Shown: one piece after another, positions 3,401-64,000 of the stretch
How the letters are laid out: each line of letters starts with the position of its first letter
Position numbering within the stretch: the stretch's first letter is position 1
NCBI RefSeq assembly: GCF_035083965.1
Contig: NC_089724.1
Coordinates: forward strand, 7,728,501 to 7,792,500
From: Branchiostoma lanceolatum
Taxonomy: Eukaryota; Chordata; Leptocardii; Amphioxiformes; Branchiostomatidae
Length of the DNA: 64,000 nt
Reading direction: 5' to 3'
Notes under the pieces: model-generated
The model's input: only the letters and a program-made list of their open reading frames with translations
Told to the model about the DNA's origin: nothing
The model's database searches: none
Translations under genes and position numbers: made by a program

Positions 3401-6400
3401 CTCCATGTGCGGCTTGTTTCTGTACAAAGTATGGAATTATGATAGAAATATGAAAACACAGATTGCTATATCCAGAATATTTCCAGTTTTAATGTTCTGA
3501 AATTGCTTTGGGCTCCTTTAATAATTTGCATTGAAGGAATATCTTACTGTTTATATGATTACATCATCACTCAAAAATGGACGAACAAAAGGGCATTTGA
3601 TATTCTTGACACTGAACTTAAAAGGTATGATGATTCATTGAGAAATTCATAAATTTGCCAACCGATTGTAGTTTTGATCTAATTAATGCTACATGTCTTT
3701 TATAGTTGCTCACCAGCACTGGAGTGTCCTTGACCTTGGATGGGATGATACTGAAGTTACAAACAACAATCTGCTTCCCGTACTCGACCTTCATGGTACA
3801 CTGCTGCTGGTCTTCTTCTGGAACAGATTGCACAGGTGCAAAACATGGTTAAAGGAGACAGCACAGGAGCACAACATGGTTAAAGGAGACAGCACAGGTG
3901 CACAACATGCCAGCACAGGTGCACAATACGGTTAAGGGAGACAGCACAGGTGCAAAACATGGTTAAAGGAGATAGAACAGCTGCACAATATGGCTAAAGG
4001 AGACAGCATAGGTGTAGAACATGGTTAAAGGAGACAGCACAGGTGCACAACATGCCAGTACAGGTGCACAATACGGTTAAGGGAGACAGCACAGGTGCAC
4101 AATATGGCTAAAGGAGACAGTATAGGTGTAGAACATGGTTAAAGGAGACAGCACAGGTGCACATAATGGCAGCACAGATGCACAACACGGTTAAAGGAGA
4201 TAGCACAGCTGCACAACACGGTTAGATGCAGTATAGGACTGGTGTAGAACATAGTTAAAGGAGACAGCACAGGTGCACAACATGGCAGCACAGATGCACA
4301 ACACAGGTAAGGGAGACAGCACAGGTGCACAACATGGTTAAAGAAGACAGCACAGGTGCACAACATGGTTAAAGGGGACAGCACAGGTGCACACCATGGT
4401 TAAAGGAGACAGCACAGGTGCAGAACATGGCTAAAGGAGACAGCACAGGTGCACAACATGGCAGCACAGGTGCACAACACGGTTAAGGGAGACAGCACAG
4501 GTGCAGAACATGGTTGAATGAGACAGCACAGGTGCAGAGCATGGTTAAAAAAGACAGCACAGGTGTAGAAGATGGTTAAAGGAGACAGCACAGGTGCACA
4601 ATATGCAGACAGCACAGGTGCACAACATGGTTAAAGGAGACAGCACAGATGCGGAACAGTTAAAGAACAAATTGAAGGTGCAATACAGAGTGAGGATAGA
4701 CAGCACTTGTGCAGGAAAAAAGAGCCAAATAGACATGTACACCTAAGGTACAAAACAGGCTTACAACAGATAGCAAAGATGCAAAGAAATATCACTGTTG
4801 TGAAATAAAGTAGGTACAAAAAGATATGTTGAAAAACAGATTTACTGTACATGTATAGGCAACAGAACTGAAGAATACCCCTAGAAGAAACATGGTAGCA
4901 AACCGACGTAAAACTCTCTTACCCAGCCGCTTCTCTCGGATGCCCTGTCGCTGGTACTGCAGGTGTGACTCGAACTGCAGTGCACGCTGGGACTGCTGGT
5001 TGTCGCGCGTTTCAATCTGATCCAGGTACACCTCGTGCAGCCGCTGGTACTCCTTCAGCTCGCTCAGCGTCCTCTCAAGAGACCTGCAGACACAAGGGAC
5101 ACTGTAAATGTCCCTGTGGCTTGACTGGTAGCAGTGTCACAGTGGAGCTCCTGGTGCCAATAGACCAATTTGAACGACACAAACTGATTTCATCATGTAT
5201 AGCGATATCCCAAAACGTTTGACGGCGTGTGTGTGGGGCCAAGTCGCTCTTGGGAAGCTAATACCTGCAACACGCCGGGCTCCCTGACACCGGTCAGGGT
5301 TTGAGGAACGGACGTGCGCAATGACATAGACAGTTTTTGTAAAAAATCCCCCCTATGACTCAGGGAGCCCGGCGTCTTGCAGGTATTAGCTTCCCACGAG
5401 CGACTTGGCGCCCGCACACATGCCGTGAAACGTTTCGGGATATCGCTATACAATGCCGGTGGCTATTCCCCTTTCTCGCTTGCATAAAATATGGACAAAA
5501 ATGGCTTATTTTGTACTTATCTGACGTACATCTTTCAGATTGTAACTGTCACTGACTTAAATTTCAGTCTCCAAAATGCAAGAAATGCGTAACTAGGTCA
5601 AAGACAAAGCAAAAATGTCACACAGACTCTAAGAAATAATACATCTCCGACAAAAATGGAAAAACCCTGGCTTTAAAAGGATAATCTGAGTCGCTTACCT
5701 GTGCTGAGCCTCCAGAGCCTTCTCCAGTTTGAAGTGGCACAGCACGGCGTGGCGGCGCTTGATGGCGGCATCAAAGTCCCGCTGTAGCTCGATGGTCTTG
5801 TCGAAACACTCCACGGATCTGTTGTACTCACTTAACACCTGTAGAGGCAGGGTCAACAATAATTTTAGACTTCCTAAAAGTAACACAGATTCAACAAAAT
5901 TTACAATTCACTTGAAAGTCCATCTGTGTTCAACTTGGTAGATTAGTCCTTCTGACTCCAGTCTTTGTCAAGGAATGAGCAAACCATCCCTTAACAAAGA
6001 CGGGTTGTCATAGACTTTCTGTATCATATTATGATCCACTGCTCACCGAGTCACGTGTTCTATCTGCATAACGTGACGTCACAGAAGCAGTCAGTGGATT
6101 GCTCATTCCTTGACAAAGACTGAAGCCAAAAATTTCGTTAAGTCCAATTTTCGTATTGGCAATTGTAGTTCAACGTTGATTCAGAGTCTTACAATTACTA
6201 CAAATGGATTCCGGGTCAGGCCACCTAAACCAGTTTCCCACTGATCAGCTACACACATGATTTTCTACCTTTGTTGGCTTGCAAAAGTAGGCATGCCAAA
6301 GACGTGTTAAGTGTACTTTCGGGCATTAAGGTTTGTGAATTTGAGACGCCTACATCCTTTGGTACAATACCTAGTATTGTCATCTAGCACAATTATGACT

Positions 6401-25530: not shown

Positions 25531-27270
25531 TCATACATTATGAAATCGGCTACTTGTGAATCGGCTACTTGTGAATGGTCTGCTAGCAAACCCATAACGT
25601 TGTCTTCCCCCTTGGTTAGCTCCCGGGTTAGCTCCTTGGTTAGCGTTGAACATATTTGCGTGTCCAAATCTACCAGTCCTTTGCGTCTGGGGCGGTACGT
25701 TACCAGTTCCGAACTTAGAGAATCCCCCGAAAGCGTCCTGTGCCCCCTCCATGGCCTGTTCCAGGTCGTACCGTCGTTTTTCCTCGGCGTCTGACAGCAC
25801 ACCGTACGCTTCGCTGATCTCCTTAAACCGCTTCTCCTGTATGGCTTTCTCTTCCTCGCTCGAATCCACATTCTTATCCGGGTGGCATTCCCTTGCCTTC
25901 TTTCTGTACGCTTTCTTGATTACATCCACGCTTGCCGTTCGCTCTACCCCCAGGATTTGATAATAGTCCCTTGAAGTACTTCTCTTCAGCGCCTTCTTCG
26001 CTTCTTGAAGGAACTGCAAGTGCTCGGGCGTTCTGTCTTGTTCGCACGCCCTCTCGTAGTCGGAAACAGCCTGTTCGAATTGTTCCATTTCCATGTAGCA
26101 CTTTGCCCTCCGGAGGTATGCTTTTGTGTATGATTCATCCAATCTGATGGCGTTTGTGCAGTCTTCGATAGCCTGCATGAGTTTGTTCATTTTTACACAG
26201 ACCACGGCGCGGTTGTAGTACAGTTTTGAGTTCGTCAAGTCGATCAGTGGGTCAATGGCGAGAGCCTCTGTATACCTGTCGAACGCCTCTTCGTATTTGT
26301 TTGCCTTGAAGGCATCGTTACCCTCTTCTTTCTTGGTGGCAAGCGTCTGGGCCTTTTCTAGTGCGGCGTTGGTCTTCTCGTGTTCCGGAGAAATGTCCAA
26401 CACTTGTTCGAAGTGTACGAAGGCGTCGTCAATGTTGCCCTGGTAGTACAGACACAGTCCCATGGCGTACAGAGCGTCCACGTTCTGAGGTTGGTACTCC
26501 AGAACCTCGCCTAGCACTTCGTGTGCTTCGTTGTAGTTCCGCATCATGACCATACTCTCTCCCTTGTACACCCTGTATTTAGCACACTGCGGGACCTGCT
26601 TGATAGCTTTGTCCATGTAAAACAACACCCGCCTGTAGTCGCCTTTCTCCATGTCACGCTCGGCGAAAGACTGCAAATGAATCAGGTCCTTGGCGACCCG
26701 GAGGTCACTGGAAATGGCCTGATTTTTTGGCTCGAGCATCTGTGCTTTGGTGTAGACTGCGGTGGCTTCTTTGGGGCGTCCCAGGGCCAGTAGGCACTCC
26801 CCGTGACTGCAGTACGCGTCTACGCAGTCCGGGGCGAAGTCGGTGGCTTGGACGGCATCCATAATGGCGTCCTCGTACTTGCCGAGCATGATGTTACAAC
26901 CGGCCCTCCCCGCCAGGTAGTCTGGACAGGTGGGGCACGCCTCGACCGCGTCGGTCCAGTGCTTCAGGGCCTTCTCGTAATTTTTACAGTTCATGAACGT
27001 GTTGGCCATCTTGACGGCCATCAAGGCCCGGCGACGGGCGGCCATGTCCTCGCCTCCTCCCGTCGTTGCCGTCCCGTTGGCTTGCATGGTGGACCCCGGC
27101 GATCGGAATCGGGCTCGCTTGCCCGGCACTCCACCTAAGATGGCGCCCGAGGAGCGCGGATTGTAATTCCTGTCTGACAGGGCAGACAGTTCTTCCTCGC
27201 TGTCGGTTCGGGCGAGCTTTTGTCCTGCCGTCTTTCTGTTTTCCTGACCGTAGAGACGGCTCACCGGCAT
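25531..27270 (-). CDS. DNAJC7-like TPR and J-domain co-chaperone, intronless
   Basis: One uninterrupted frame of 579 residues. In family members (DNAJC7/TPR2) TPR clamps bind HSP70/HSP90 tails and the J domain stimulates HSP70 ATPase in the cytosol. Residues 1-75 are a basic, low-complexity extension absent from the roughly 494-residue human DNAJC7. Residues of about 80-425 form tandem TPR units ([53 protein letters not shown]). The J domain begins near residue 434 (DYYQILGV) with the catalytic HPD at 463-465. The tail is rich in Gly, Asn and Gln, then SSRF repeats. I start at ATG 27270 (accaccATGc), because the frame's upstream opening codon is TTG. Single-exon structure suggests a retrocopy, but the intact frame argues for function. 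It could be a DNAJC7 paralogue rather than the orthologue. Confidence 0.88.
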
Positions 27271-27502
27271 GGTGGTGCTGGAACCGGGGTAACGTCTGTG
27301 TGTGTTCGGTCGCGGTCCCAACTAGATCAAACTGGGATCACAACCGCCCGCGACCCTAAATAAAACCTTCCCCGGTGGGAGTGGAAAAAAGCTGGTGACG
27401 TAGAGCGGATCGTTGCCGGTTACTCAGGTTTGAACAATAACAAGGATGTTTGTGACGTGGAATCACGGGACGGGAGAGACAGTAATTGTCCAAGATGGCG
27501 AC
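27271..27502. promoter_or_regulatory. Promoter region of the DNAJC7-like gene with CRE-like and YY1 boxes
   Basis: GC-richer sequence with a TGACGTAG box, a TGACGTGG box and, facing away from DNAJC7-like, an AAGATGGCGAC YY1 box at 27492-27502. An ATG lies in that box and opens a short plus-strand frame (to 27725) with no recognisable product and no strong donor, so divergent transcription is possible but a divergent gene is not shown. Confidence 0.45.
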
Positions 27503-31880: not shown

Positions 31881-32513
31881 CATAATTTCAACTTCGTCGT
31901 GAACATTTCTTTCTAAACTGCCAACAAACCCCAAATCACAATGATTCGTCAACGCCTCTTGAGTAATCCTCTTTGGAATAACGCTGTTATCTAAAACATT
32001 TTTCATGGATGTAATAAAGAAAAAATATTCAATCCACCAGCATGCAATTCTTTTAAATCCTGCATGTCTAAAAAGGAACTTTCCGAAGAGTGGAGCTTGA
32101 ACCTTTAAGTTACAATGGTATGTAGCATATAAAAAAAATGAAATAACTTTACAAAGAAATTTTATAGGATTGTCCATATCGAAACTCTTGGGGTTTCAGC
32201 TGCAGCCATCCAAACAAACACTTTAACGAAGCTTCATGATAATGACATCAACCCGTAGTATTCCACAAACGCAGCTAATTGCCTGTATACAGCTAGACTG
32301 CTCCATGAAAAGCAGCGAACATGCGTATGGTTTCCTAGCGACCACGGCGGTAACTCGGTCTCTTCGTTGTCAACAACCATTGAGACACAAGAATGGATCC
32401 CAGCAACCTCAAAACTTTCCGGTGTCACCATTGAAGCTTCATCATTCATTGCGGCCTCGACTAGAGAAAGGGCGGTAGCTGTCTTCTTCATCAGTCTCGT
32501 CAAGTTCTGAAAT

Positions 32514-33851
32514 ATGGAGGAGGATCAAAACCTCTTCTCACTCAATTTGGGTAACATACATGATATCATATCGAGCACCTCGCTGTCTCGTGGTCTCCAA
32601 ACAGCGTACCTCGTTTTCAGTCTGATCGTGGCCGTGGGTTGCAGCTTGCTCCTCATTTTCTTGGTCTGGAAAAACGAGTCTCTACAGAAGCCCCGTTATT
32701 ACATTCGGTGTAACTTAGCGCTAGATGATATCATCTTCACAGGCTGCATGATTCCCGTACAGATCTATGGGCTTTTCCACGACGGCAGCAGTTATCGACA
32801 GTTCTGTGGTGTCTCAAATACGTTGATCCCAACCTCCACAGCATCAATGTTCGGTACGTACCTCCTGATGGCAACAGATCTGTATCATTTCATATGTAAT
32901 CCATTGCACTACGGCAGCAGAGTCACAACAAAACGTGTCATCATCGGAATAGTTACAGTCAGAGCCTTCGCCTTGTTCTTTGGGATTGGACCTGCCGTAA
33001 TCAGAAGACTGCAGAACTCTGGCGACAGCCTATGTCAACCAGAACCTTTCAGCAGCACCAGCCCGGCTGCCATCTTCAGAAACATGTGTGCAGCTGAGGT
33101 TGTAGTTGCTGTCCTGGCCATCCTCGTGATCTACTTCCTCGTCTACAAGGAAGCAAGGAAACAGCAGGAGAGGGATGAGCATCGCAACCTGTGGCTTTGC
33201 CATACCAAGGCCTTCAGAACACTGGCACCACATATCATTGTTCTAGTTGTGTCGGTGGCATCCTACCTATTCTTGGTTGCCTCTGGTCGGTCTTTGCTCA
33301 ATGTCGGTGCAGAGAAAGCATCGACCTCACAACTCATAACGGTCATAGTGGCCAATCGGATCTTCCTGACGCTATCATCTATGGTCAACCCCATCATCTA
33401 CAGCTTCAGGCAGCCAGAGTTCCGACGAGCTCTGAGGGAGCTGTGCGACGTGCCTGACAACATACCTTTGCCATCAACTCCACCACCTGTACACAGAGGG
33501 CAGGACATCGCCGTTGTTAACCTTCTCCCCAACGGTCATGATCAATGGACATCAGACGAAGAAGAACTCGCAGCAGAATCATCTTCCCAACAGACAGAGA
33601 GACAGCGTGAAGAGCAGACACGACTTCCCGGTACATTGCAAACACAGACAGAGACGCATGGCCGTCAGACACCACCGACTCCCAGTCCACCTCAAACACA
33701 AAAAGTACAGGTAGAGGTACACAACGAACGAACGAAGTTTCCTGACCACCGTATAAAAGAGAAGACCCGACCCAACCAACCTTTGGTACAAACTGCACTT
33801 GCGAAGGAACATCCCAGCCCAACACTACTTCCTGGATGCAGCGGTTTGTAG
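32514..33851 (+). CDS. Intronless class A GPCR, lancelet olfactory-receptor-like
   Basis: 445 residues starting at an ATG, seven hydrophobic segments. TM1 is about 30-52. TM2 has NLALDD (67-72). Cys98 and Cys174 could form the usual TM3-ECL2 disulfide. TM3 ends with D122-L-Y in place of DRY, followed by ICNPLHY (127-133), a signature strongly reminiscent of vertebrate olfactory receptors. TM7 ends with NPIIYSFR (292-299). The sequence after residue 310 is a 135-residue hydrophilic Ser/Thr/Gln/Pro-rich tail, unusually long for this type. In the family the receptor sits in the plasma membrane of sensory cells and signals through G proteins; the ligand is unknown. Lack of introns is normal for olfactory receptors. 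No neighbouring paralogue is in the window. Assignment to class A is firm; olfactory type is inferred from NPLHY. Confidence 0.9.
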   Translation: MEEDQNLFSLNLGNIHDIISSTSLSRGLQTAYLVFSLIVAVGCSLLLIFLVWKNESLQKPRYYIRCNLALDDIIFTGCMIPVQIYGLFHDGSSYRQFCGVSNTLIPTSTASMFGTYLLMATDLYHFICNPLHYGSRVTTKRVIIGIVTVRAFALFFGIGPAVIRRLQNSGDSLCQPEPFSSTSPAAIFRNMCAAEVVVAVLAILVIYFLVYKEARKQQERDEHRNLWLCHTKAFRTLAPHIIVLVVSVASYLFLVASGRSLLNVGAEKASTSQLITVIVANRIFLTLSSMVNPIIYSFRQPEFRRALRELCDVPDNIPLPSTPPPVHRGQDIAVVNLLPNGHDQWTSDEEELAAESSSQQTERQREEQTRLPGTLQTQTETHGRQTPPTPSPPQTQKVQVEVHNERTKFPDHRIKEKTRPNQPLVQTALAKEHPSPTLLPGCSGL

Positions 33852-36480: not shown

Positions 36481-36485
36481 ATACG

Positions 36486-36608
36486 GTAGAAAATTGATCG
36501 GGCTATCTGCGCCGCAGCGTGAATTTCGCAGCCTCACCTTCGCCTCTAACTGCCGTGTGGTCTCATCTTCACTGTCAGACGAAGAACTGTCCTCCTCGTC
36601 ATCGTCGG
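36486..36608 (-). pseudogene. Inverted partial copy of SART3 exon 1 and intron 1
   Basis: About 120 bp read in reverse complement match SART3 exon 1 from 37263 through its donor to about 37385 in intron 1, with only a few differences. The acidic EEDSSSSDSEDE codons and the aag|gtgagg donor are intact. The copy has no ATG or promoter of its own, so it is a segmental fragment rather than a gene. Confidence 0.92.
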
Positions 36609-37202: not shown

Positions 37203-39863
37203 ATGGACTCTGCAGAAGAAGAGATGCAAAACCCTCCGTCTGAGGACGTAGAGATGGCACAGGACGATGACGAGGAGGACAGTTCTTCGTCTGACAGTGA
37301 AGATGAGACCACACGGCAGTTAGAGGCGAAGGTGAGGCTGCGAAATTCACGCTGCAGTGCAGATAGCCCGATCAATTTTCTACCGCGTACACGTGAAATT
37401 TGTTATTGTTTTTCTGTCACGATGATAATTTGCACGAGACTCAGTTGTTGTTGAATAGAAACGCTGGATATAACTTCAGTGTATTTCAGACGACAGAGCC
37501 CATAATTTGCTACACACTGTCGTCACCTGACATAACATTTATGCACTGGTCAGTTAGCCTTCGCTGCCTAGCTTGAGTGCTCCACGTTGTGTTGTTGCAA
37601 TGATTTCAAACAATACTAGTAGTTCGGAGACCTCATATTTTCATGAATATTCTGATTATGCAAATGATCCACATTGGCATGATAATATTTGATATGACGC
37701 TTGGTCATATTCACCTTTAGCTAGCTTACACAGGTCACAATTGACGGTCCAATCATCTACCATATACTATGATGTAGTCACTGCACTTTAGATTAGCCGT
37801 GGCGACTAACGAAGGGAGTTTTTTCTTGATATTACATATACTATCCCTTCTAATATCAAGAAAAAACTCCCTTCGTTAGTCGCCACGGCTACACTTTAGA
37901 TTAGTTAGGATTATGACACTTTTGCATCAATTATGCAAATTAGCAATTTATTTGCATAATATTGGTATCTAACTTTAATGTTCCACCTGGCATAAACTAC
38001 ACATGTTCCATGTATTTCATTTTCAGTCCTATAATGTAAAACACTGGTAACATGATGATAATGAACAAGATTTTCCTCATTAATTATGCAAATTACTTAA
38101 TTAGGTCCCAATTTGCATAATTTGCACTTCATCATGTACATCTCTATCTGAGCTACCTGCATACTACATACAATTGTTCCTTTCTTCAGTTTTTCTATAC
38201 TAGTATCTCCTGGGAAGATTTTGTCAAAAATGCCCCTGCAGTTCCAGAGAAAGCTGCTAGGGGGCCCAAACCTACACCACTTCTTTCTTACATCACAAGC
38301 TATCTCATCAGTATCTGCCACACAAAAATACATAGCACATCCAGGTCAAAAGATACCGAAAAGGAAGTTCTGCTGCAGTACCAAGGTCACATACCAGGGG
38401 GCCCAAAATCGACCTTGACAATCGTCTTCCACACACCAACCCACATACTAATTATCATCATAATCCATCCAGAGGTTCTTGAATTTTGCTGACTCAAAAA
38501 AATCCAGAAACACAAACACACATACAGGCCAAAAACTATTGATACATTTGTATATTATATATCTCCATTTTTCATATGGAGATAGAAAGAAGAACAGTTG
38601 TTCAGAAAATATGGATTGTACACAGAAAAGAATATCAATTTGATGCTTATTGAACCCAAAAGTTCTGGGACCTTGTGTTTTTCTTCTTCAGATTCAGCGC
38701 ATTTCACAAACATTTTTTCAAAGCACTTTTCAGGAGTGTAAAATAAATAGTCACATACCCCTTTATACCAGAAGCTGTAACTTAGCTGAGGGACCAAAGA
38801 TTTGATAGAACCATGGTTAGCAAGCGAATTTCTTTTGTTCCAGCGGTCACTACGGAGGCTGGTACTCAGGCTAAGATTTGATAGATCACCCAGTGAATTT
38901 CATAGATAAACAATCATAAAGAACGCTTTTGTGAGTTTTGTCTTTTTATCATACTTCTACAACTTGCATTGATCATATTCAAGTTATAAAATCAAGGGTT
39001 ATACCAATCGTATTTGGGTCTCTCAGCAATTGCCGTCTAGTGGAAGGGGAGCCTTTGGAAATACTCTGTACCATCTGGCAGCTTTGCATGACGTAAAACT
39101 TACATCCAGTGACCAACCCCACTTAAACTAAGCCAAGTTACGTTTGGGACCGGCTTTTTAGCGAATACCCACAAACGGCAACTCTGGCGAAGTCGGCGCT
39201 GCACGAATCTCATTTTTCTTTGCTCGGAATATGTTCAGGTTGTGCTCCCATTAATTAATCCTAAGTTTCAAGTCAATCCATCAATCCAAATGTAAATTCA
39301 GTTATTTTATCCAAAACACCCCTGCAGTTACAGAGCAAGCTGCTATGGGGCCCAAACAATCACCACTTCTTCCTTACATCACAAGCCACCAAAAAATCAA
39401 GACCATAGCATGTCCAGGTCAAAAGATACAAAAAAAAACAAAGTTCTGCTGCAGTACCAAAGTCACATACCAGGGGGCCCAAAATCAACCTTAACCTTTG
39501 TCTTCCCAACACCTGCCCACTTACCAAATATCATCATAATCCATCCAGGGGTTCTTGAGTTATACTGACTACAAAGACACAAAACACACACACACACACA
39601 CTGTCAGACAGACACACACGGAAACACCCAAACCAATATCTCCGTTTTTCATGGAGATCATGAACTTACAGCTATTTTCTGGTGTGCTGAACAGGTGAGC
39701 AGTAACCCCTATGACTACAACAGCCATGTGGAGCTGATCACCGCCCAGAGGAGGGAGGGTGAACTGGTGGAGGTCAGGCAGGCCAGGGAGAGGATGAGCA
39801 AGTTCTTCCCCTTAACAGAAGGTAATGTACAATATAGTAGCACTCTATGGAAAATATTGTTTT

Positions 39864-39953
<90 letters not shown>

Positions 39954-42900
39954 CACGCAAGTGCACACTTGCATGCACACATGTGCACACTTGCATGTGC
40001 ACACGAGCGCACACACATGCGTGCACACACACACGTACACACACACTCACTTAGTCACTATCCATTTTTTCCAACACAAAATCCGGATGCTTTTTAATCA
40101 GGGCTTGGAATACACACCTGAAACCTGGGAATTGTGGAGAAAACATTGAGGTTACAGAAAAAGATACCGGAACCTGAAACTTGAAATGTAGGAGAAGAAA
40201 AAGAATACATCTTGATAAAGTTCTTACTTCAAATCACATATTGTTAAAGAAAGAAAGAAAAAACGAGCCCTGCCAGACAGTGCTGTACATATATGTCAGG
40301 ACTAGAGTAAAAATTATATGCAATCTGCAAAAATGATGAATATTGACTAACTTCTAAGTCTCAAGAAGACTTATTGATAAGGTAAAGTTTTTCCCTGGCA
40401 ACTTGGTAAATGGCTTTCATACATTTATGTGTTCATGTTTAAGGAACTAGTTCACATTTGATATCCTTGACCGTTGTCTGATTTCAGAGCTGTGGTTGGA
40501 TTGGCTGACAGACGAGATGAAGCTGGACTCTGGTAGACAGAACCGAGCGGCAATAAACAAGCTGTTTGAGAGAGCTGTGAAAGACTACCTCTGTAAGTCA
40601 TGATATATGTATCATTGGGTCGGCCAACTACACTCTTTGCAGCCAGGGGCTGAATTGCGAGGAGCTTACAATTGGTGGGGCTAAATCCCAAGGGTCTGGT
40701 GCGACAGCCATTTAATGCTAACTCAGGTGACCTCAATACGACAATTGCCCCATGTGCAGCCATAGGGCTGTAGGATTTGAACCACTCACACTGGGAAGGA
40801 CCCCTAGTCTTTTCAATAAGTGCAGTGGGTTTTTTAACATGCTTGAGGTGTGGCTCTCCACAAACACAGGACCTCCATATAACGTCCTAGCTATCTGAGG
40901 GACGTCCCTCATTTTCACCGGAGTGAAGTGAGGAATGTCCTGTAAAGTGGCTGTCCCAAGGGCACAACAGTGGGGCCTATCAGTGGTTTCGAACCGAGGA
41001 CCTCTCAGTTCTGGCCGAAACACCCTGCAGATTGCACAACATGATGCCACATTTTAGACATTGCAAATTGGTAGCTAACATGTGTGATAACTATAGGAAA
41101 TAAAGGCAAGGCTGTTTTTTTAGCTTGTTACCGGTAAATTACTAAGAAAAATAACAAATAAAATTAAGGGAAGACTGCTATGAACCCAGGGGTAGCATGT
41201 AGGCGGTTGCAATTTATTCATTAGATGTAGCAAAAGTATAACTTTTGTTGGGAGTAATTTATTTTGTATTCAGTAATATAATCTCTTAATACAAAACTAA
41301 GATAGTAAAATCCACCAAAAATGCAGTAGATGACCTTAGAACACCCCTCCGTTAACATGCAGCATAACAGACTGCTATCCGTTATTGTTGTACGGTCTCT
41401 TTCATGCCAGTTTCCTTGCTTCTTTTTTGTAAACAAAATTTTATTGGTCTACAGGAAAGTTTTGCACCCAATTCCCTAATGGTTACAGAGTTAGGCAGCA
41501 GGGAGAAGATACTACACCCAGACATATACGTATGAGTATATCCAGTACTGTATTTGATCCCTTCCATGTGTACATGTACATGTAGGTGCGGACGTATGGT
41601 TGGAGTATATCCAGTACTGTATTTGATCCCTTCCATGTGTACATGTACATGTAGGTGCGGATGTATGGTTGGAGTATATCCGGTAATGTATTATATCCCT
41701 CCCATGTGTACATGTAGGTGCGGACGTATGGTTGGAGTATATCCGGTAATGTATTTGATCCCTCCCATGTGTACATGTACATGTAGGTGCGGACGTATGG
41801 TTGGAGTATATCTGGTAATGTATTTTGTCCCTCCCATGTGTACATGTAGGTGCGGATGTATGGTTGGAGTATATCCGGTAATGTATTATATCCCTCCCAT
41901 GTGTACATGTAGGTGCGGACGTATGGTTGGAGTATATCCAGTACTGTATTTGATCCCTTTCATGTGTACATGTACATGTAGGTACGGACGTATGGTTGGA
42001 GTATATCCAGTACTGTATTTGATCCCTTTCATGTGTACATGTACATGTAGGTGCGGACGTATGGTTGGAGTATATCCGGTAATGTATTTGATCCCTCCCA
42101 TGTGTACATGTAGGTGCGGACGTATGGTTGGAGTATATCCGGTAATGTATTTGATCCCTCCCATGTGTACATGTACATGTACATGTAGGTGCGGACGTAT
42201 GGCTGGAGTATATCTGGTAATGTATTTTATCCCTCCCATGTGTACATGTAGGTGCGGACGTATGGTTGGAGTATATCCAGTACTGTATCGGTGGGATGGA
42301 GGATGGGCTGGAGTCGGTGCGAGCGGTGTGCGAGAAGGCGCTGACTGCGGGAGGGCTGCACGTCTCCAAGGGAACCATGCTGTGGGACGTGTACAGGGAG
42401 TTCGAGAACGCCGTTCTCGCAGGAATGCAGGTAAAAATTCCAGTTGTATCAGGTGCTGTATTTGTATTGCACAACAGCTACATGTACTGGTAAACTGGCT
42501 AGTATTGAAATACACTGTATACATAGTGTGTGTGTTTATTTGTTTGTGTGCGCCTGAGTGTTTATGTGTGTGTGTAAGTTTGTGTGTCCATGTTTTTTGT
42601 GTGAATTGGTATGTGAATGTGTGTGTAAGTGAATGTGTGTGTGTTTATGTGTGTGTGTGTATGTCTGCTTTTGTGTGAATGGGAGTGAGTACATGTTTGT
42701 GTGTGTGTGTGTGTGTGTGTATTTATGTATATGTGTGGGTATGTCTGCTTTTTTAATGAGTGTGTGAGTGAATGTGTGTGCGTGTATGTATGTATGCACA
42801 TGCATGCATGTGTGTGTTTTGTTCCGAACCTCTGGTCAGTTCCCTCATGCTCCGTCCTCCTCCCTCTCCAGCCAGACCCAGGGTCCATCTGCACAGGTGA

Positions 42901-54900: not shown

Positions 54901-57900
54901 GTAATGACCTCCAGACTTCACAGAGAGCCTTGCTGTTAATCATTTCTACTTGATGTTTAGAGGTTGATACTTCTAAAGGGTCAGACTTAACAGAATGTAA
55001 TAAGTGTTAAAGCTGAAGATAGACTGTTAAAGTGTTACATATTACCTTGCAATTACGAAAAGCTCTGAAACGTCAATTTTGGATACCTTAAACAAGAAAA
55101 ACTAATTTTCTTCCAAAAAAAATCTGTGATGTTACCTGATAGTGTGGAGAAGTGGCAGACGTGAGACTGGCCTTCACAAGTAAGAAGAAGTTCCGAGGAT
55201 TCTGCTATGTGGAGTTCAAGGATGAGGTATGTGTAATGCTGTATCTATCACTATTTTTTCTTTGAACCATTGAGAACTACTAACACCCTCCACTTCAAGT
55301 TTAGAATTCCACTTTTCCCATTTTGACAAGTGCTTATATTTTCAATATAAAAGCATTCAAGTGAAAAATGCTTACATATAGTTGATGAGTATGATGTACT
55401 TGAGTATGATGTACATGAGTATGATGTACATGAGTATGATGTACATGATTGATAATAATAACTTTCATGAATATTCATTTTGAAAATTTTCTTCCTGCAG
55501 GAATTTGCAGGAATTCCTGCAGAATCTGCAGGAATCCCTGCAGGAAGAATTTGTCCTGCAGGAATTTCTGAGAACTATCTTCTCTCAGACATTTACATGT
55601 AACTAAATCTTGGGAGCTGTGAATGCATCAAGTTTGCGGTGATTTACTTTCACGGTTCGGAGAAAATGAAGTTTTTGCAGTGATTTTTAGTTCGCGGTTG
55701 AATCAAGGTTGTAGCAGGTGGTCAGAAGACAGAACAAGCATTTTTGCAGTGGTCTTGAGTTCATGGAGAAGAGTTTACCGCAAAAATCGTGAACATTAAA
55801 TCACCGCAAACTTAAATGCATTTACTGTATGTTTCTTTTTCTGATCAGGTTTGACTTTTGCTTTACAATATGATCAACCTGACTGCATGCATTTCTAAAC
55901 AAACAAATATAGACTTGAAAGTGGTTTGGTTTTAGTGTCAGACAACAGTGTTAATGTTGTTCCAGTCTGCTGCTGTGAAGGCATTGTTGCGATAGGTACT
56001 TTTGTTATGATTAGAGTCAAGAACGTTGATTTATGATGTTATGATTCATCTAACTGCATGTATGTCTAAATAAACAAAAATGAAAAATAAAAAACAATCG
56101 ATACTTGAGGGTGGTTTGGCTTTAGTGTCAAACAAAAGTGTTGCTGTTGTTCCAGTCCGCTGCTGTGAAGGCCCTGGGTTTCGACCACAAAGAGGTGGAA
56201 CGGCGCCCCCTGTTTGTTTCCCCCTGTATTGACAAGAGGAAGGGAGACAAGTTCCATGGATTTCAGGTGAGCATGGCTTGATACTGAAATAATCAATCTT
56301 GTAACTGAAGCATCCTTTTACAGTGTTGGATATCATATTTATTTCATCATAAATGTTTCTATTGTATGCACTTTTATCAACATGGTTTTTAAACGCACTT
56401 AAAACTTAATGGAAAGTTGCCAATGCGACCTCTCAGCCATTATCAAGCACAGTACAGTCCATGGTATATGGTCAGTAAGCTTTGTCTAAAGCAACCAACT
56501 GCGCCGCAGTGTGATTGCATTAAGTTACAGTACGACTAGTGGAGGTTTCACTTTGAAATGCCCCCAAGACATTTTTTTTAAACACAGTTATGTAATACTG
56601 GATTTAGTTGGTCAGAAATTACCCGTGCAATGACAGCCTTTCTAGTGTTGAATTGGTGCAGGGTTTACAATCACAATATAACACACAGGTGGTGCTGTCG
56701 CAAGGGTCTGGGCGGCTGTCAGTCGGCACCACCAGGTGACCTCAATACGACCTTCCCCAACCTAATTCAGGTACCCATTCACACCTGGGTGGGGTGAGGA
56801 AAGTCGTGTTAAGTGCCTTTCCAAAGGGCACAACGTCGGTGACATGACAGGATTCGAACCCGGGACCACTTGGTTCTGAGCCAAACGCTCTGCCATTAAG
56901 CCACACGACCCCACTTAAATTTGGAAAGCTGATGGTGCGGTTTTGCTGATTCCTTTTACCTGATGTTTTGTTTGATTGTTTTCCTTCAGTATGCCACCAA
57001 GCTGGAGAAAAACAAGCTGTTTGTGTCCAACCTGCCGTTTACTGTCACCAAGGAGGCCCTGGAGAACATCTTCAAACAGGTGGGGGACTGGTCTGAGAGA
57101 CTGCCTCACTCAGCAGTCTTAGTCTTACATATATATCTTACTTATATACATATATGTTATATGTATATTATGTTTGTATGTGACTTTATTACATTGTGTT
57201 CTACTTGTTTAAGTTTTAAGTTTTGCAAGAGTTTAGGTGTGAAGTCATTTGTTGTGATATGATCAGCCATTGCTGCAAGGTTTTGAAAAGTTTCCAAGCA
57301 TACAATATGTTGAGACCTGTTAAGTTTTTAATGCTGTTTTTGTGCATAGCATTCATCATTATTTTTTTCTACACATTTTTATTCAAACATACATAAATAC
57401 ATTGTATAATAGCACATTTGAATGTACACATTTACGATTCCACAAATATACAATACATATTGGTACAGGGGCCATTTCCACTTGCTATTTGGCTAGAGTG
57501 TGCTCCCTATAACTTTTTTGTCAGGGGTGCCGTGTTTCACCCCCCCCCCCCCCCCCCTGGATTTTCTGTGCTAGGGTCTCTTCCCTAGGACTTCTGTGCA
57601 GGTGTGTCTTGCCTGGGTTTCGGTGCTGGGTTTTCCTTCCCAGTGTTTTGATTCATCAATATTATAATATAGAGAATAGTGAATAGTGAACTTGAAGGTG
57701 ATATTGGATTAAGATGCATTTTTACTTCTTCTTACATGCTAAAAAAGTAGACTGCGTACAGTTGCTAAGTTCCCACTGTGTTTGTTTCCCAGCATGGTCC
57801 GTTGAAAGGAGTGAGGATGGTTACCTACAGGTCGGGTAAGCCAAAGGGACTGGCTTATGTGGAGTATGAGGACGAGGTAAGGCTTATTCAGTTATAGTAG

Positions 57901-61213: not shown

Positions 61214-63514
61214 TTACAAGTCGTTGTTTGTGTTCTGTGCGAAGGCATGCAGGTTCCCCATCTGGCTGAGGCCGCTCTGGACGTGCGCCACGTGGATCTC
61301 CACATTGTTCTGGAAGCAGCTGCAAAGGAGTAACGGAAAAGATCTAAGACAATGAAATATCAAATATTTTTCTGCCATATTTCAAATTTTACCTTCCATT
61401 TTGAAATATCAGATTCCCAAGCAGCTGTACAATATTAACTACATGTACAGTTAAAATTGTCTAAGAGGACAACACAGGAGACCAATAAAGTCTGGTCGTT
61501 TTAGACATCTTAACAAAATGAGACAAATCAAGACAGACACAGATTTCAAAGTTCATGTCCTTTAACATATTGACAAGAATGCTAAACTTACTTATCCTTA
61601 AAACATTCATTGCTTGCTACTAATCCTTTTAGCAAGGGGTAGTGTTGGCCAATAGGAAACTTTCACACAGCAGAAGATAAGGGGCAGTTGTTGGGGAGAC
61701 TTGTAAATGGTAAGAACAGTTGACAAAGAATGCAGAATAATAGAAGAAAATCTCTTTCTGCAGCAATTTTTGAACACACGCTATACAATCCAATTCTTAA
61801 ACAAAGTTCCAATTCTTTGACAAAGTAAATACAAAATCCATTAAAGTTGTGAAACCCCCCTACCTTAGGTTGGCACAGTCCACCCTCTGCCGAATGTCCT
61901 CCAGGGCGTCTGACAGGGACTTGAACTCATACGAGTTCAGCTCATTCTCAGCCAAAGCCTGGAGAACACACACAATTGCAAAGTAAAACATGGCGTAAGA
62001 TTGTGTCACACATTTTACACCATCCCTACATGATCATTTTATCCAAACAACAAGAATTACAGAACGCCTAAGTCTTACTTCTACTGTCATCCACCTAACT
62101 TAACTAACGGTATGGTGAAATCATTTGATGCGATTGTACCACATTGTGTTTACATATATTCCATCCATGAGCATAGAGATGCAGGGTGCAACAAATTGTG
62201 GAAGGACACAAGCTGTGTAACCACACACCAATGTAACTACAAACCTTTGTTTATAATATCTTGTAACCAAACCTTTAACACTGTTGCAGATGTCACACTG
62301 GGAAAAATTCTGGACCTACGACAACAGCGTACTAAACCTTTTTCCTTCAGTGCGAACCGGCCCGCTCGTCGTATGGCAGCCATTTTTATGGCCCATACCG
62401 TTTTGTCATACGCCACCTCCAGAGTGAAAGAGTGAATGTACGACCACCTAGCAGGAGGTGTGAGGCACTGCCAGCCTGGTGTGAATCCAAACTATCATAC
62501 GATAATGTCCTGGTGCCGATATTCCGCTTGCAGGAGGTCGGGCGTCATGTGCAAATTGCGGTTGTCGTACATCCAGAAAGTTTCCCAGTGTGAATCGGGT
62601 CTATAATCTATTGCATTGTTGTAAGAATGCACAAGGACAGCACAGTTTTTCTGAACCTGTTTGTGGTACGGATGTGGTAATCAGTATGACATCCCACCTT
62701 TATCTGTAGCATGAGTGAGGTGAGTTTGGTGATGAGCTGACAGGCGTCCTGACTCTGCACCGTTTTCGCGCCGTTCCCCTCGTTCGCTCTCTGCAGGATC
62801 TCCACGGCGTCCTCCTCGCATCTCTTCTTCAGCGCCGAGCCTGCCGGTTCCTTTATCGTCTCCAGGCCTTGCTCTGGAGCGATCTACGGCAAGGAAAGTC
62901 TCATGGTCATGATCACGAAAACAGTAAGGACTACGAAGCCCGGAAGGGGAGGTACATGATACAGAGGACCTGCCCTTTAGTGTCCACCACATGAAATGCT
63001 CAATGCCTAATAAACAAATTACATAGTGAAGATGATGTTACCTCATCATCCTCATGACCTTTGAACATTAGGACTTACATATCCAATATCGTTATGATAT
63101 CATAACTTAAATTTTACCGATACAAATGTAGCTGATGTTTAACTTTGTGGTGTTTGCTTTTAATGTAAATCAATAAGAATAGGTGTTGGTTCATGTTGTG
63201 GTGTATACATCTGATGTTAATCAGCAAGGTATTTCAGACACCATGTACTATGTACGTCTGCTATTTGCTAATAAAAAGTCATCTCATCATCTCAAATAAA
63301 CATTGGCTCTTGTTATGCCACTGTTTCCTTCATATTCTGCTTAATTCTGCCATTCTGTGGCCGTGCAATACTACAGATGTGTACATACCTCCTGGCAGTA
63401 CTGTTGGACCCCTATCAGGTAAGTGTTGAGTTCCCTGTTCAGCCTCTCCAACTCCAGGACCAGGGTGGCATATTTCTTCTGGAACTCCACATCCACACTT
63501 TCACCGTGAGATTT
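61214..63514 (-). CDS. Unrecognised helical/coiled-coil protein, last four exons (5' end beyond the window)
   Basis: Exons from 5' to 3' on the minus strand: 63389-63514, 62698-62883, 61864-61958, 61214-61319. GT..AG junctions and phases agree exactly, giving 170 residues plus a TAA stop. The first exon reads FQKKYATLVLELERLNRELN, a heptad-like amphipathic helix. The second contains KKRCEEDAVEILQRANEG and LITKLTSLMLQIK. The third and fourth contain YEFKSLSDALEDIRQR and NNVEIHVAHVQSGLSQMG. The composition is that of a small helical-bundle or coiled-coil subunit, but I do not recognise the family and assign no function. The first visible exon starts at phase 0 inside a 60-bp minisatellite that carries its acceptor, so upstream exons lie beyond 64000. 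Confidence 0.8.
62293..62593. mobile_element. Foldback DNA element with TCACACTGGGAAA ends
   Basis: The left end tcacactgggaaaaattctg, then gacctacgacaac is mirrored by gttgtcgtacatccagaaag and tttcccagtgtga. About 300 bp, in the second-last intron of the right-hand gene. Non-coding. Confidence 0.88.
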
Positions 63515-64000
63515 CTACAGGGACAAAACCACACATACATGTAACTCCACATCCGCACTTTCACCGTGAGATTTCTACAGGGACAAAACCACACATACAC
63601 GTAACTCCACATCCACACTTTCACTGTGAGATTTCTACAGGGACAAAACCACACATACATGTAACTCCACATCCACACTTTCACTGTGAGATTTCTACAG
63701 GGACAAAACCACACATACATGTAACTCCACATCCACACTTTCACCGTGAGATTTCTACAGGGACAAAACCACACATACATGTAACTCCACATCCACACTT
63801 TCACCGTGAGATTTCTACAGGGACAAAACCACACATACATGTAACTCCACATCCACACTTTCACCGTGAGATTTCTACAGGGACAAAACCACACATACAT
63901 GTAACTCTACATCCACACTTTCACCGTGAGATTTCTACAGGGGCAAAACCAAACATACATGTAACTCCACATCCACACTTTCACTTTGAGATTTCTACAG
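63515..64000 (-). repeat. Exon-anchored 60-bp minisatellite carrying a splice acceptor
   Basis: Eight 60-bp units follow the genuine exon boundary at 63514. Each contains the acceptor (minus strand ttttgtccctgtag), the first ten codons of the exon (KSHGESVDVE), then TTACATGTATGTGTGG. Acceptors recur every 60 bp up to the window edge. Units differ by few bases, showing recent expansion or homogenisation. The repeated minus-strand open frame is a phase artefact. Confidence 0.97.

Follow-up and report, generated by a model that had tools for sequence, protein, structure and literature searches.

An eleven-copy acceptor minisatellite at SART3 exon 4 of Branchiostoma lanceolatum, a new case of the lancelet mirages

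Results

SART3 exon 4 begins in the last copy of an acceptor array

We analysed a window of 64,000 nucleotides (nt) from the lancelet Branchiostoma lanceolatum (contig NC_089724.1, positions 7,728,501 to 7,792,500), which carries a SART3 gene whose fourth exon begins inside a minisatellite and, at its right end, part of LIN9 with a similar array (Table 1). SART3 exons 1–10 encode 418 residues that match human SART3 (PDB 5jpz_A, E 2.2e-118) and the HAT-repeat families of Pfam, while RRM_1 and LSM_int_assoc pieces lie downstream. We placed exons 11–22 by eye, with the help of the similarity table and the sequence. For the joined string of 919 residues, the top two of 753 matches were the SART3 proteins of B. 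floridae (P0053) and B. belcheri (P0054), to which the first 418 amino acids are 91% and 93% identical, respectively. By these similarities the gene at the array is SART3, in a Branchiostoma lancelet, and the exon is its fourth, in agreement with a preliminary description that had been made from the letters of the window. In the database SART3 is named as a spliceosome U4/U6 recycling factor.

Exons 2–10 measure 81–179 nt and introns 1–9 span 441–2363 nt, with 1659 nt for intron 3. Exon 3 joins in frame to the exon that opens at 42252. Across this junction both P0053 and P0054 read KDYLC-(A/V)-DVWLEYIQYCIGGM, which is the product of the 42252 acceptor, and neither has an insertion at exon 4. 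Copies 1–10 of the array, when read through, meet a stop first.

Table 1 Features of the acceptor arrays and adjoining exons in the window (a slash marks the splice junction).
Feature	Coordinates	Strand	Details
SART3 exon 3	40488..40592	+	donor TCT/GTAAGT
SART3 exon-4 mirage	41531..42288	+	11 acceptor units 63/69/75 base pairs (bp) apart, partial unit at left edge; Tandem Repeats Finder (TRF) and pattern match
Ten upstream candidate decoy acceptors	41586..42225	+	all ten with exon-4-like sequence (37 nt) and a stop in frame
Seven donor-like GTAATG sites	41683..42222	+	28 nt past acceptors 41655, 41718, 41787, 41850, 42051, 42114, 42189
SART3 exon 4	42252..42430	+	179 nt, begins in 11th (last) copy; P0053 and P0054 agree at junction
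Decayed upstream copy of SART3 exon-19 acceptor region	55901..55982	+	84% identical to 56091-56172; acceptor copy 55966
SART3 exon 19 (numbering of this analysis), real acceptor	56156..56266	+	
LIN9 exon (KSHGESVDVEFQKKYATL...)	63389..63514	-	starts in last array copy; Pfam LIN9_C 1e-36, PDB 7r1d_C, P0173, P0174
LIN9 mirage	63483..64000	-	60-bp unit, at least 9 acceptors, runs off window end

The array consists of two interspersed unit types

A pattern of acceptor plus coding start matched 11 times on the plus strand and never on the minus strand, and TRF returned 41534–42288 with periods of 69 bp (11.3 copies, score 1043) and 132 bp (score 1103), scores far beyond chance. The first exonic bases lie at 41586, 41655, 41718, 41787, 41850 and 41913 (copies 1–6) and at 41982, 42051, 42114, 42189 and 42252 (copies 7–11), with successive spacings of 69, 63, 69, 63, 63, 69, 69, 63, 75 and 63 bp. 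The eleven acceptors of the preliminary description, with their positions and spacings, were thus recovered in full, whereas the repeated coding part, which it had put at about 28 bases, is in fact 37 nt long. Each unit comprises the tail of intron 3 (26–38 nt) and the first 37 nt of exon 4, and the array ends 37 nt inside that exon, where the last copy reads GTGCGGACGTATGGTTGGAGTATATCCAGTACTGTAT. Unit length depends on how many ACATGT hexamers precede the AG. We considered multiple-of-3 units as a design, given that 63, 69, 75 and the 60 bp of the LIN9 array all divide by 3, and set this aside, because 69 and 75 are 63 plus hexamers and the divisibility therefore amounts to just two independent facts.

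An intact AG is present in 11/11 copies, and only the 42252 copy runs on into coding exon 4. All ten upstream copies meet an in-frame stop, either TAA nine codons past the junction (copies with GTAATG) or TGA at 12 codons (copies with GTACTG), which bears out the earlier statement that stops fall within about 12 codons. The coding-type copies 1, 6, 7 and 11 carry CAGTACTG; the 37 nt of copies 1 and 6 are the same as the true exon start in copy 11, from which copy 7 departs at one base. In copies 2, 3, 4, 5, 8, 9 and 10 the sequence is altered to C(C/T)GGTAATG. These seven have two changes in common, at exonic positions 28 and 32, which jointly create the TAA stop and the donor-like GTAATG. Because all seven have both changes, the altered type probably had a single origin and then spread inside the array. 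In the acceptor tail CATGTGTACATGTAG, with extra hexamers collapsed, 0 of 15 columns vary compared with 11 of 48 elsewhere (Fisher p 0.053), which is suggestive only of selection maintaining the tail.

A genome assembly may also misrepresent such a repeat, in that real animals would have few copies and the array would have been expanded, or mixed from two haplotypes, during assembly. There are precedents: the mirage of the globin gene BflGb6 seemed aberrantly assembled in the draft genome (PMC3087553), and the copy number of the PGBD5 repeats differed between assemblies (PMC3902484; what we say of cited papers refers to the parts of them that were available). An artefact is poorly compatible with the units themselves, which differ and fall into six distinct exonic variants among 11 in interspersed order, and with the second array and the decayed two-copy duplication nearby. 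The PGBD5 repeats, moreover, were confirmed by re-examined Sanger and new Illumina data (PMC3902484). We consider this explanation very unlikely.

Donor-like sites in seven of the eleven copies

The preliminary description had noted that copies with GTAATG look like micro-exons. Scored with a matrix built from 23 real donors, GTAATG reaches 3.99 after CCG and 3.51 after CTG. Real donors score 4.52 or more in 22 of 23 cases (top 12.3), with the exon 3 donor at 1.52, and 9–10% of 1263 background GTs score as high as the array sites. Introns from a GTAATG site to the adjacent copy would be 35–47 nt long, compared with at least 441 nt among SART3 introns 1–9. If introns of 50 nt or more are allowed, 7 of 77 splice paths stay open, namely the normal path plus six that include three micro-exons of 28 nt, which together restore the reading frame; with a minimum of 20 nt, 43 of 288 are open, the normal one included. 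Since the real donor of SART3 exon 2 is itself GTAATG, preceded by AAG, this hexamer can work in a stronger context.

These data bear on the possibility that copies with both signals are spliced as 28-nt exons, or that a new intron is arising here. Such a reading would draw on the presence of both signals in 7/11 copies, on the GTAATG donor of exon 2 and the even lower score of exon 3, and on the six (of 77) and 42 (of 288) open paths beside the normal one. It also has precedents, in that tandem duplication over an intron-exon boundary made a new potato intron (PMC4974935) and that the authors of the globin work propose mirages as a route by which lancelets create introns (PMC3087553). Nevertheless, the donors fall below nearly all real ones and are equalled by many background GTs, the introns to adjacent copies would be far shorter than SART3 introns 1–9, and neither P0053 nor P0054 contains inserted residues at exon 4. 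Hence the pairing of acceptor and donor-like site held up, while the weak donors and short introns tell against its use, and we regard micro-exons or intron birth as the least probable of the explanations weighed here.

A second array at LIN9

At the right end of the window, the first exonic bases of the LIN9 units lie at 63994, 63934, 63874, 63814, 63754, 63694, 63634, 63574 and 63514. Each unit has the sequence ...TTTTGTCCCTGTAG/AAATCTCACGGTGAAAGTGTGGATGTGGAGTT, and a LIN9 exon starts in the last of them; the alignment with PDB 7r1d_C begins at the first residue of this exon. The LIN9 piece of 104 amino acids is 96% and 98% identical to B. floridae and B. belcheri, and the lancelet LIN9 proteins P0173 and P0174 contain this exon without insertion. 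A TAG after 19 codons stops 8/8 upstream copies, the first of the nine visible acceptors being at the window edge. This array is a second large mirage, with the same layout as at SART3 exon 4.

Outside both arrays, TACATGTA is the most frequent palindromic 8-mer of the window (17 occurrences, 1.8 expected). It is found 18 times in the SART3 array and seven times in the LIN9 array, and is a possible hotspot of slippage or exchange.

Further copies at exon boundaries

To place the arrays among the other boundaries, we compared 23 acceptors and 23 donors, taken from SART3 and from two exons of LIN9, as 50-nt boundary queries with the neighbouring 600 bp and with 100 shuffles; the SART3 exon 22 donor and exon 23 acceptor, later LIN9 exons and other genes of the window were outside this census. 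Upstream copies exceeded all 100 shuffles at three of 23 acceptors (SART3 exon 4, LIN9 and SART3 exon 19), in agreement with blastn, or at two of 22 without SART3 exon 4, which had prompted the census. Neither the census nor blastn detected tandem copies at any of the 23 donors tested. These numbers, 3/23 and 0/23, are too few to claim an acceptor bias. When arrays of the SART3 and LIN9 lengths are placed at random, 25% and 18% of the placements take in one of the 23 acceptors of the census, and a position on acceptors is therefore not remarkable by itself; we rejected it as a statistical surprise.

One additional blastn match, at the SART3 exon 1 donor, is an inverted and not a tandem copy (36484–36606 and 37263–37385; 123 nt, 98% complementary, 656 nt between arms) that covers the end of exon 1 and its donor region. 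Intron 1 also holds a perfect 41-nt inverted repeat (37794–37834 and 37851–37891) with a 16-nt loop.

The duplication at SART3 exon 19 consists of two 82-nt copies, 84% alike and 190 nt apart, and use of the upstream acceptor would lead to a stop after nine codons. The pair is a decayed two-copy mirage. Across SART3 exon 4, LIN9 and exon 19, a stop follows 19/19 upstream acceptors.

A different outcome is suggested by B. belcheri, where 14 extra residues of P0054, VNSNPYAMLLPHEQ (residues 44–57), stand precisely where exons 1 and 2 meet, with VNSNPYDYN after them. This insertion is a repeat of the exon 2 start and ends in EQ, the pair that GAACAG, the intron 1 tail in the window, would encode in that frame. 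We infer that the B. belcheri gene has a 42-bp mirage of two copies and that the gene model behind P0054 uses the upstream acceptor. In the SART3 gene of the window, blastn and the census found no second copy of the exon 2 acceptor.

The last acceptor is probably chosen by exon definition

We scored acceptors with a position matrix from the 21 other SART3 and LIN9 acceptors, from which SART3 exon 4 and the LIN9 array exon were excluded. The last SART3 copy scores 6.42 and the preceding one (42189) 3.53, while the 21 real acceptors, with leave-one-out, have a median of 5.34 (range -4.69 to 9.35); the six long-tail copies score 3.35–3.87. Read-through from acceptors 1–10 would give exons of 845 down to 242 nt, compared with 179 nt from 42252, and those from acceptors 1–9 (317–845 nt) would exceed every one of SART3 exons 2–10.

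We therefore favour the following reading, with considerable confidence: the last acceptor would be used through exon definition and the others would be decoys, in a lancelet mirage that is tolerated and not regulatory. Tandem duplication across the acceptor would have put extra copies inside intron 3, and unequal exchange or conversion would have amplified and mixed the two unit types, while selection would keep the last copy coding. Exon definition would then lead to use of the last acceptor, since the exon 4 donor is paired with whichever acceptor lies closest to it across the exon, here at 179 nt, as opposed to the other ten at 242–845 nt. In addition, the last copy has the stronger, short-tail acceptor, its nearest rival at 42189 having a long and weaker tail, and an occasional wrong choice would give a premature stop and nonsense-mediated decay. 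The recurrence at LIN9, with the same layout, and at exon 19 supports this reading, and in a human survey sites nearest across the exon were favoured, as in exon definition, when flanking introns were long (PMC9225289). Published mirages, which are built alike, are also reported to leave splicing undisturbed (PMC3087553; PMC3902484).

Several observations weigh on the other side. The upstream short-tail copies 41718, 41850, 41913 and 42114 tie with the last copy at 6.42, a score that 3.5% of 1222 other AGs in 37400–58000 reach or exceed, so the last acceptor is ordinary and not unique. Likewise, of the eight LIN9 copies scored, seven reach 9.33, among them the last, and the remaining one 8.53 (the copy at 63994, at the window edge, was left unscored). 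Because of these ties acceptor strength cannot decide the site, and we rejected it as the sole rule. RNA structure that conceals decoys was rejected as well, as the folding of 41531–42430 is unremarkable (z -0.80; equalled or surpassed by 3 of 20 shuffles) and does not help to explain the choice of site. For acceptors, the same human survey describes an upstream preference overall, which in its section 9 is significantly reduced, with no reversal shown, when both introns are long (PMC9225289). P0053 and P0054, which carry the junction evidence, are database protein records. Finally, the rule of the last copy may not be absolute, as exon 2 of P0054 appears to use an upstream copy.

The ten decoys also invite a reading as a splicing rheostat, in which they are used frequently, array length sets the amount of surviving SART3 mRNA and copy number tunes dosage, as the preliminary description had suggested. 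All ten keep their AG and lead to a stop, four equal the true site by our small matrix, and the length of a variable number tandem repeat (VNTR) in human ABCA7 correlates with exon 19 skipping and lower expression (PMC5954066). In the same system, however, the event most akin to the use of a decoy, namely retention of a single VNTR unit, did not change with length (PMC5954066), and mirages are reported not to interfere with regular splicing (PMC3087553; PMC3902484). The dosage proposal is unsupported here, and we judge a rheostat to be unlikely.

Other features of the window

A third long minisatellite (3826–4652, minus strand), with 31-bp units, reaches to about 10 bases before a putative acceptor, whose first exonic base would be 3817. 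Its strand has six AGs where 21.6 are expected, together with 13 TTTAAC, so that it resembles AG-poor branch-point and pyrimidine sequence in repeated form. The gene at this acceptor gave only a sub-threshold Pfam TPR_1 match; we assume that it resembles TTC17. Two apparently intronless open frames were also seen, one of 596 codons (25531–27321, minus strand) with TPR-like and DnaJ-like sequence, which we take to resemble DNAJC7, and one of 446 codons (32511–33851, plus strand), presumably a seven-transmembrane receptor.

Discussion

The SART3 array is a new case of the published lancelet mirages, minisatellites across intron-exon boundaries, and the link to the Adh mirage that the preliminary description had drawn is borne out by the literature (PMC3087553; PMC3902484). 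Its repeat unit spans the boundary, splice signals are present in the units and the copy at the end of the array is the real exon; SART3, like LIN9, is here a cephalochordate gene. Published mirages comprise globins, Adh3, TnC and PGBD5 (PMC3087553; PMC3902484): the globin work describes both acceptor and donor kinds, in BflGb6 and BflGb9, and cites Adh3 and further amphioxus loci, and PMC3902484 adds PGBD5 and cites TnC.

The Adh3 mirage (Canestro et al. 2002, via citing papers) is of the same kind in another gene, with somatic instability reported there; the units described here are 63–75 bp in SART3 and 60 bp in LIN9. In BflGb6 the unit also combines the 3' end of an intron with the 5' part of an exon (exon 2), and its authors report from reverse transcription PCR that splicing is unaffected. 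The BflGb6 units are larger (150–160 bp) and fewer (3–6 copies, two haplotypes having 6 and 3 units) than those of SART3 and LIN9 (60–75 bp, 9–11 copies), and in BflGb9, unlike here, the 3' boundary of the exon is repeated (PMC3087553). PGBD5 shares repeats of 60 and 108 bp over splice sites, but these are imperfect and number 2–7 copies; one annotation made them an exon, which the authors omitted (PMC3902484). Outside lancelets, the duplicated segment of a potato RdRp gene similarly spans an acceptor, and its upstream exonic part can give a donor, yet this is one duplication in a plant with the new intron detected (PMC4974935). The intronic ABCA7 minisatellite likewise has a splice signal per unit and affects the next exon; it differs in that the signal is a donor, that length tracks skipping of the next exon and that the parts available describe no copying of coding sequence (PMC5954066).

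Among the matches listed, the open-licence literature contained no genome-wide mirage survey and no SART3 or LIN9 mirage. Term searches within parts of lancelet papers on VCBP, huntingtin and multiple genomes did not find "minisatellite", nor was "mirage" found among the places listed for the VCBP paper (12 of 21), which nevertheless speaks of whole or partial exons, with splice sites, inside introns.

The new content is a mirage in a gene named as a spliceosome U4/U6 recycling factor, with a second next door, a decayed third and a probable protein trace of a fourth. The two introns, one with eleven near-identical acceptors and the other with nine or more, form a natural experiment in splice-site competition that is largely free of sequence differences. 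Should mirages prove as frequent as the window leads us to expect, they would be a living source of new introns, of exon extensions and of errors in lancelet assembly and annotation. That they are a pervasive lancelet class, formed mainly at the 3' ends of introns, we propose tentatively, as a possibility that is somewhat more doubtful than probable. If it is true, lancelet genes would hold a large, fast-changing stock of decoy acceptors, most of them silenced by exon definition and decay, and some of them, as exon 2 of P0054 suggests, may turn coding.
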